Positions 4,007 through 5,041 of a stretch of 30,999 nucleotides of DNA are shown one piece after another. The position numbers and the translations under genes are program-made. Position 1 is the first letter of the stretch. Each line of letters starts with the position of its first letter. The notes below the pieces were generated by a model. That model saw only the letters and a list, made by a program, of their open reading frames with translations. It made no database searches and had not been told where the DNA came from. This DNA is from Sphingomonas sp. CCH10-B3 (lineage in GTDB: Bacteria > Pseudomonadota > Alphaproteobacteria > Sphingomonadales > Sphingomonadaceae). The stretch covers positions 1 to 30,999 of the forward strand of contig NZ_LSIJ01000039.1 in the NCBI RefSeq assembly GCF_001556185.1, read 5' to 3'.

Positions 4007-5041
4007 TTGCCGCATCTGCGAAAGACCCGCGCCTTGGCCGCCCAGCCACTCAGTTTCCAGCGCATGATCCTGAAACTCCACGATTATTGGAGCGAACAGG
4101 GCTGCGTGATCCTGCAGCCTTACGACATGGAAATGGGCGCAGGCACGTTCCACACCGCGACGACGCTGCGCGCGCTCGGCCCCGATCCGTGGAACGCCGC
4201 GTTCGTCCAGCCGTGCCGCCGCCCGACCGACGGCCGCTATGGCGAGAATCCCAACCGGCTCCAGCATTATTACCAGTATCAGGTGATCCTGAAGCCGAGC
4301 CCGCCCGACTTGCAGGAGCTCTACCTCGGCTCGCTGGCGGCGATCGGCATCGATTTCGGCTGCCACGACATCCGCTTCGTCGAGGACGACTGGGAAAGCC
4401 CGACGCTCGGCGCATGGGGGCTGGGCTGGGAAGTGTGGTGCGACGGGATGGAAGTGACCCAGTTCACTTACTTCCAGCAGATGGGCGGCTTCGACTGCAA
4501 GCCGGTCGCGGGCGAGCTGACCTATGGGCTCGAGCGGCTGGCGATGTACATCCAGAACAAGGACAGCATCTACGATCTGGCGTTCAACGATCCCCCCCGC
4601 TCAAACCCCTCCCCTTCAGGGGAGGGGCAAGGGGTGGGGGATGCCTCGCAGAGCCTGTCGCCCGGCGCCCACCCCACCCCAACCCCTCCCCTGAAGGGGA
4701 GGGGCTTTATGACTTACGGCGACGTCTTCCTCGAAAACGAGCGCGAGATGAGCGCGTGGAATTTTGAAGTGGCGAACACCGATTCGCTGTTCGACCAGTT
4801 CCGCAAGCACACCGCCGAATGCGAAAATTCGCTCGGGCGCGGGCTGCCGATCCCGGCCTATGAACAGGCGATCAAGGCGAGCCACGTCTTCAACCTGCTG
4901 CAGGCGCGCGGTGTCATTTCGGTGCAGGAACGCGCGAGCTACATGGGCCAGGTCCGCGATCTGGCGAAGGGCGCGTGCGCGGCGTGGATTGAACGGATGA
5001 CGCCCGAATGGCAGGCCCGCTTTCCCGGGTGGATGCTGTGA
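4007..5041 (+). CDS. glyQ: Glycine--tRNA ligase alpha subunit with in-frame repeat insertion
   Basis: The alpha subunit of the heterotetrameric bacterial glycyl-tRNA synthetase, carrying the class II catalytic core that activates glycine with ATP. Recognisable blocks are LHDYWSEQGCVILQPYDMEM, GAGTFHTATTLRALGP, QPCRRPTDGRYGENPNR, YYQYQVILKPSP, WEVWCDGMEVTQFTYFQQ and ELTYGLERLAMY. I chose the TTG at 4007-4009 because AAGGAGAG precedes it at 3993-4000; an open frame back to 3908 has no family similarity. The product has 344 residues against 303 in E. coli. The excess is mostly residues about 198-234, encoded by a palindromic doublet at 4603-4708 inserted just before the conserved TYGDVF segment. 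Family sequence resumes immediately after it, so the gene is probably functional. The stop overlaps the glyS start (GTGA). Confidence 0.95.
   Translation: MPHLRKTRALAAQPLSFQRMILKLHDYWSEQGCVILQPYDMEMGAGTFHTATTLRALGPDPWNAAFVQPCRRPTDGRYGENPNRLQHYYQYQVILKPSPPDLQELYLGSLAAIGIDFGCHDIRFVEDDWESPTLGAWGLGWEVWCDGMEVTQFTYFQQMGGFDCKPVAGELTYGLERLAMYIQNKDSIYDLAFNDPPRSNPSPSGEGQGVGDASQSLSPGAHPTPTPPLKGRGFMTYGDVFLENEREMSAWNFEVANTDSLFDQFRKHTAECENSLGRGLPIPAYEQAIKASHVFNLLQARGVISVQERASYMGQVRDLAKGACAAWIERMTPEWQARFPGWML
4606..4704. repeat. REPIN-like palindromic doublet inserted in frame in glyQ
   Basis: The left arm (4606-4627) is CCCCTCCC-CTTCAG-GGGAGGGG and the right arm (4683-4704) is its exact reverse complement, with core CTGAAG. 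Inside each arm is a GGGGTGGGG/CCCCACCCC pair, and a non-repeated spacer of about 30 bp lies in the middle. The whole forms a large inverted repeat of 99 bp arm to arm, a multiple of three, with no stop codon in the glyQ frame. The right arm is identical to the repeat at 7-28. Confidence 0.9.

Follow-up and report, generated by a model that had tools for sequence, protein, structure and literature searches.

In-frame palindromic doublets of REP type in the glycyl-tRNA synthetase genes of Sphingomonas sp. CCH10-B3 and related bacteria

The glyQS locus and its palindromic doublets

The genes for the two subunits of glycyl-tRNA synthetase (GlyRS), glyQ and glyS, overlap on contig NZ_LSIJ01000039.1 of Sphingomonas sp. 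CCH10-B3, of which a stretch of 30,999 nucleotides (positions 1 to 30,999; hereafter the window) was analysed. Both genes carry, within their reading frames, an inverted doublet of short palindromes of the repetitive extragenic palindromic (REP) type. The element in glyQ, its position and its open frame were directly established, as were its relatives and the repeated occurrence of such inserts at these GlyQ and GlyS loops. The features of the locus are as follows:

4007 to 5041, plus strand: glyQ, glycyl-tRNA synthetase alpha subunit (344 aa), TTG start and TGA stop, as in database protein P0001
4603 to 4707, plus strand: REP-type palindromic doublet in glyQ, 105 bp or 35 codons, in frame, with the ends AAA...CTT
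5038 to 7395, plus strand: glyS, glycyl-tRNA synthetase beta subunit, GTG start placed by eye, overlapping the glyQ stop
6160 to 6267, plus strand: second in-frame doublet (glyS site A), 108 bp, palindromes at 6163-6184 and 6243-6264 with GCTTGC/GCAAGC loops
7003 to 7149 (borders approximate), plus strand: glyS site C, a variable stretch with a third, different palindrome (GCTCCCGCGGAAGCGGGAGC), in frame

The GlyQ protein matched PF02091 with 461.5 bits and NCBIfam PRK09348/glyQ above its curated family cut-off, and has the fold of solved GlyQ; GlyS matched PF02092 (611.6 bits), DALR_1 and TIGR00211 (702.9 bits). The doublet in glyQ consists of a left palindrome, CCCCTCCCCTTCAGGGGAGGGG (4606-4627), and a right palindrome, CCCCTCCCCTGAAGGGGAGGGG (4683-4704), each of 22 bp, whose outer edges span 99 bp, while the inverted arms at 4603-4638 and 4672-4707 extend over 36 nt and are 83% complementary, in agreement with the inverted doublet described in a first-pass annotation made from the sequence alone. 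The reading frame is uninterrupted through the doublet, and the protein exceeds the commonest sphingomonad loop (LAFND-AGV-TYGDVF) by 37 residues directly before TYGDVF, as that annotation had also estimated. Both Pfam and NCBIfam split the GlyQ match into two stretches at the insert, the first PF02091 stretch stopping at residue 193. The RNA of 4601-4710 folds at -84.5 kcal/mol (z -7.6), and that of 6158-6269, covering the glyS doublet, at -83.8 kcal/mol (z -8.0). No target-site duplication was evident by eye at the glyQ doublet (CGCTC/AAACCCC against GGGGCTT/TATG), for which insert-free DNA of sufficient closeness would be needed to decide.

The first-pass annotation mentioned neither the glyS doublet at 6160-6267 nor the different palindromic insert further downstream in glyS, of which the peptide at site C in the window reads PAEAGAQ...LDPRVRGG. 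The insert sites are predicted by AlphaFold to be disordered, with a predicted local distance difference test score (pLDDT) below 50 at GlyS 663-693 (site C), and the glyQ doublet probably contributes a floppy loop to the protein.

Inserts at the same loops in related GlyQ and GlyS

An alignment with related GlyQ, as proposed in the first-pass annotation, gave the insert as 37 added residues. The insert of the window was found in none of the 80 best-matching GlyQ loci from genome contigs, nearly all of them alphaproteobacterial by title, and a conserved alphaproteobacterial extension of GlyQ, a finding that would have overturned the annotation, was thus rejected. The site is a loop of variable length, the distance from LERLAMYI to YGDVF being 17 residues in 116 and 22 residues in 43 of 192 database proteins. 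The closest insert-free proteins, P0002 and P0024, are 95.7% and 97.4% identical to the window protein outside the loop, which argues for a recent gain of the insert. A decaying or redundant glyQ copy, or an assembly artefact in place of a genuine doublet, is very unlikely, since glyQ is otherwise 96-97% identical to its insert-free relatives, glyS is intact and the database cluster of the window GlyQ holds four members on two contigs, the window itself included.

The first protein search listed 120 hits, in which nine further GlyQ proteins (P0007, P0008, P0009, P0011, P0015, P0020, P0077, P0084 and P0092) have doublet-type peptides at the same loop, and the doublet peptides are of two kinds, PSPSGEG...PTPPLKGRG and PSRLREG...PPTPPASGRG. 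A second, profile-led search brought peptides of single-palindrome type at this loop to 15 of 208 rows; its profile was made from insert-bearing proteins, and the enriched sample yields no frequency. A tree of 208 of the 210 rows was inferred without the loop; P0090, which failed the loop pattern, was left out, as was P0121 (418 residues, on a contig of 1952 bases), in which the catalytic segment is duplicated, perhaps by chimeric assembly. The 10 doublet rows require nine changes on this tree, and with only the branches supported in the Shimodaira-Hasegawa-like approximate likelihood ratio test (SH-aLRT) the lower bounds are nine, seven and four changes at thresholds of 80, 90 and 95, respectively; 181 of the 208 rows are without such an insert. 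Insert-bearing and insert-free proteins can be closely similar outside the loop (P0007 and P0079, 98.9%; P0008 and P0134, 97.5%; P0001 and P0024, 97.4%). The proteins P0131 and P0156 are 99.6% identical outside loops of 38 and 22 residues, and the shorter loop of P0156 may be the remnant of an insert.

Searches for GlyQ in 397, 396 and 295 partly overlapping genomes gave a match in 388, 386 and 292 of them. A full-length match in one piece was seen, among the matches listed, in four genomes: G354 and G534 with short non-palindromic additions, G688 with a long non-palindromic loop and G667 with one palindrome of the CCCTCTCC type. Besides that of the window, two long GlyQ loops could be read as DNA. 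That of locus L191 holds a single palindrome of a family other than that of the window. The other (L190:1990-2148) is a long loop of the RPSGAVEGGALANRAAEDLRAHSPQF type at the same place, shared by proteins P0058 and P0166, with no evident palindrome. Doublets in GlyQ are rare.

For GlyS, 31 of the 35 top loci had a readable glyS (L011, L021, L024 and L026 were dropped for want of a complete readable glyS). Site A is occupied by an insert, some 30-50 residues long, in 14 of these 31 relatives; the other 17 are without a long insert, the stretch at this place measuring 17 residues in L005 and 9-10 in the remaining 16. Palindromes are recognisable in 13 of the 14 inserts and, sorted by eye, fall into five sequence types: that of the window (L003, L004, L007, L010, L032), the CCCTCTCCC type (L028, L030), the CCTCCCCG type (L012, L027), the CCAGC type (L009, L025, L029) and one with CTGAGCCTGTCGAAG arms (L019); the insert of L022 is without a clear palindrome. 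The first three types, all C/T-rich, could be related to one another. The bearers include named strains, Sphingomonas psychrolutea CGMCC 1.10106 (L010), Sphingomonas sp. AX6 (L003) and Sphingomonas sp. YR710 (L030). None of the 32 readable glyS among the 45 lower-ranked loci L036-L080, whose titles name other alphaproteobacteria or no organism, has a site A insert (Fisher p = 7e-6 against the top relatives). A similar mixture of inserts occurs across relatives, window included, at site C, closer to the C terminus, and L032 has, from L032:7179 onward, an extra in-frame doublet at GlyS residue ~278, which gives its GlyS at least two doublets besides the site C insert. No broken glyS was seen among the readable glyS of the top and the lower-ranked loci.

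The reading phase is conserved at each site, the first arm being read as PSxxxEG in 9 of 10 GlyQ doublets and as PLPxxGG in all six GlyS copies of the window's family, a regularity that may reflect a favoured insertion site or selection acting on the encoded peptide. It is conceivable, though on balance doubtful, that sphingomonad GlyRS serves time after time as a landing site, about five palindrome types, of which three or more seem to have no kinship, having been gained independently in the same few loops of both subunits and in a phase fixed for each loop; either the elements would then target these sites, or the loops or their mRNA hairpins would confer an advantage beyond tolerance.

Alternatively, GlyQ, and likewise GlyS, could have acquired an insert once, long ago, with inheritance followed by drift, by gene conversion in which one repeat type overwrote another, or by loss, a scenario proposed for RPE-4, RPE-6 and RPE-7 of the Rickettsia palindromic elements (RPEs) (PMC3767692). 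The insert site is identical in all cases, the phase is constant per site, the tree at SH-aLRT of at least 95 forces only four doublet changes, one Rickettsia locus holds RPE-6 in some species and RPE-7 in another (PMC3767692), and the loop of P0156 (GAGGERGAF), as a possible remnant beside its near-identical partner, makes loss possible. The insert-free near-twins P0079, P0024 and P0134 nevertheless have the plain 17-residue loop, the inserts belong to differing sequence types and most GlyQ rows are without them, and a single old insertion is considered unlikely.

Retention for a function, whereby the mRNA hairpin would slow or gate glyQS translation or the disordered loop would tune GlyRS, is in keeping with the highly stable hairpins in both coding sequences and with inserts at several loops of both subunits, including the 14 occupied copies of site A. 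As the sequence, length and type of the inserts vary freely among species, more than half of the relatives do without a long site A insert and a hairpin accompanies any copy of the element, this explanation is quite unlikely.

Dispersed copies of the doublet inside and outside genes

The palindrome family of the glyQ doublet is overrepresented in the window. The core CCCCTCCC occurs 12 times against 1.03 expected, a number reached in none of 100 shuffles, and the pattern CCTCCC-N3-9-GGGAGG six times against 0.00 expected. Two copies outside the glyQS genes are:

1 to 31, no strand assigned: copy of the right arm of the glyQ doublet, identical to 4677-4707 over 31 nt, at the window edge
30909 to 30930, no strand assigned: lone palindrome of the glyQ family, 10 bases past the gcvH stop codon

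The first of these, a match which the first-pass annotation had noted near the window start and which extends over the full 31 nt, follows the bL25 gene (44-658, minus strand) at a distance of about 15 nt from its stop; it is too close to the edge for the codon-usage coding test, and any left partner would fall outside the window. The gcvH gene that precedes the second belongs to a locus about 22 kb from glyQS, in which a glycine riboswitch (RF00504, 63.5 bits; 29107-29196, plus strand) stands upstream of gcvT (PF01571) and gcvH (PF01597), the two genes occupying 29373-30899.

The palindrome CCCCTCCC-N6-GGGAGGGG was found in 14 of 16 relatives, with 0-104 copies per genome and at least 27 in six of them (G007, S. 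psychrolutea, 104, G009 78, G013 71, the third richest, G010 42, G004 32 and G003 27; G008 has 15); the reversed control pattern was absent from the relatives except for one occurrence in G014. The listed palindrome sites of G013 (36 groups; one contig-end palindrome not included) and G008 (10 groups) were surveyed with their flanks. By a codon-usage score, 35 of the 46 groups are at edges or intergenic, nine lie between coding stretches in different frames and two lie in one continuing frame, one in each genome (1/36 and 1/10). The call in G013 (L165 12544-12621) was rejected, its open reading frame (ORF) being a repeat-made hypothetical, and was counted with the other doublets. The call in G008 (Sphingorhabdus soli) is a major facilitator superfamily (MFS) transporter gene (L182:1887-3230, plus strand) with an in-frame doublet at 2490-2588, apparently in a central loop.

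Thirty doublets measured 77-179 bp. Their length is a multiple of three in all seven located in genes and in 10 of the 23 others (p = 0.0096), a comparison that is partly circular, the in-gene class having been recognised by its continuing frame. Two of the three frames are open in the seven in-gene doublets. Since the other doublets so often depart from whole codons, the element does not seem to be built as a coding unit, and selection would retain those copies that fit. Ribosome hopping over the stretch, or its removal from the RNA or the protein, would be compatible with the strong mRNA hairpin, which known bypassing elements also have. Bypass needs neither an open frame nor a length divisible by three, yet the seven in-gene doublets have both and 13 of the 23 others are not multiples of three (with the same circularity); absence of the stretch from the final protein is therefore extremely improbable.

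The most probable reading, to which we assign a probability of roughly 0.85, is that a dispersed REP-type doublet persists within an essential gene only where it amounts to whole codons and falls in a disordered loop. The glyQ insert would belong to a family of non-autonomous elements, each an inverted pair of G+C-rich 22-bp palindromes, that are dispersed across sphingomonad genomes and chiefly extragenic. It would have arrived recently in the loop of the alpha subunit between its catalytic domain and its C-terminal helices, presumably moved by a mobilising enzyme. The ribosome would translate through the doublet because its length is a multiple of three and that frame is free of stops, and GlyRS would thereby bear, and apparently tolerate, a disordered loop of about 35 residues. 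Copies that break the frame or strike a folded part would be lost, and the essential gene would keep those that are open, made of whole codons and placed in a disordered loop.

Several points weigh against this reading, besides the circularity of the length comparison. The nine further GlyQ doublets are known from predicted proteins, their palindromic DNA being deduced from the peptides, and several of these proteins stem from short metagenome contigs; of the two further long GlyQ loops read as DNA, only one is palindromic. No other GlyQ doublet appeared among the matches listed from the three overlapping sets of genomes, where inserts unlike the profile could appear as two matches and hence escape. 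Of 11 sites classed as having coding sequence on both sides in different frames, two (L032) turned out to be in-frame glyS copies. The translation of the glyQ insert is predicted from its open frame, and the fixed reading phase at each site is not accounted for by random landing alone.

Two other features of the window are an adjacent pair of genes of the TraB/PrgY/gumN family at 770-2598 on the minus strand (PF01963, 182.7 and 251.8 bits) and a perfect 8-bp tandem array at 11677-11721 (CAGCGTGA x 5.6), whose unit length is not a multiple of three.

Comparison with known palindromic repeats

A REPIN (REP doublet forming hairpins) is an inverted doublet of short palindromes that forms one hairpin and is present in many, mostly extragenic copies (PMC3116915). 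The glyQ doublet has this architecture, with two inverted REP palindromes, a short spacer and a hairpin, and the copy numbers and the largely extragenic location in the sphingomonad relatives also correspond. The likeness does not extend to the REP-associated tyrosine transposase (RAYT): the Y1 transposase domain PF01797 was absent from 12 of 14 relatives, including five of the six with the most palindromes (G007, G009, G010, G004 and G003), in a search which a RAYT too diverged for PF01797 would escape. Three hits in all were obtained, two in G013 and one in G008, and no palindrome of this pattern was found within their 3.3-kb loci. Thus the label REPIN-like given in the first-pass annotation holds for the architecture and fails for the transposase partner, and it is doubtful that the doublet is a REPIN in the strict sense.

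Dimers of GTAG/CGTC REPs inside ORFs encode 20-30 residues (Di Nocera 2013, PMC3733652). Such intragenic REPs are described for 'E. lithoralis' and 'S. alaskensis', where they lie in tRNA synthetases, and recB of two Xanthomonas carries REPs at about one site (PMC3733652). These superfamilies are marked by an unpaired GTAG or CGTC tag, or else TGTC or CCTC, on one side of the palindrome. The sphingomonad doublets share with these the presence of REP dimers within ORFs, including those of tRNA synthetases. The ends of the 30 doublets, examined by eye, have AAG/AAA/TCT/GCT-type flanks with no GTAG or CGTC, and a degenerate CCTC tag would be indistinguishable from the stem. The GlyS inserts of L009, L025 and L029 and site C of the window may resemble REPs of the CGTC type. 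The two species are taken to be sphingomonads, namely Erythrobacter litoralis and Sphingopyxis alaskensis.

RPEs, 100-150 bp in length, are palindromic repeats that sit inside ORFs and leave the frame intact (PMC3767692, PMC10969869), and among the genes that contain them are those for PheRS-beta and IleRS, with R. japonica as an example (PMC3767692). The comparison with RPEs drawn in the first-pass annotation is apt in so far as both are in-frame palindromic repeats of about 100-150 bp inside ORFs, lie in tRNA synthetases and show different types at one locus. The same annotation called such a repeat unexpected in an aminoacyl-tRNA synthetase here, a view which the published intragenic REPs (PMC3733652) and the RPEs of PheRS-beta and IleRS (PMC3767692) contradict, as do the similar inserts at the same GlyQ loop (by peptide, and in L191 as DNA) and the frequent occupation of GlyS site A. 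No paper on palindromic inserts in GlyQ or GlyS was seen among those listed from an open-access library.

The doublet differs from RPEs in its sphingomonad host and, apparently, in its G+C-rich sequence, and its copies are rare in genes genome-wide, the single in-gene calls among the listed sites of G013 and G008 including a spurious one in G013. Lastly, the authors of the Rickettsia studies favour one old insertion, with hotspots not excluded (PMC3767692, PMC10969869), whereas the near-identical insert-free relatives in sphingomonads point to repeated gain. The question of one old insertion or a hotspot, raised for Rickettsia, becomes testable by comparison and proteomics, given the near-twins that differ in having an insert and the GlyS inserts of named strains. 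For annotators, the source of low-complexity peptides such as PSPSGEG, PLPLAGGAGGG and PTPPLKGRG in proteins is explained. The doublets of glyQ and glyS extend the known in-frame palindromic repeats by another sequence, by GlyRS and by better evidence of repeated gain; such repeats are not confined to Rickettsia or Wolbachia, and sphingomonads carry them repeatedly in an essential enzyme, in each of its two subunits.
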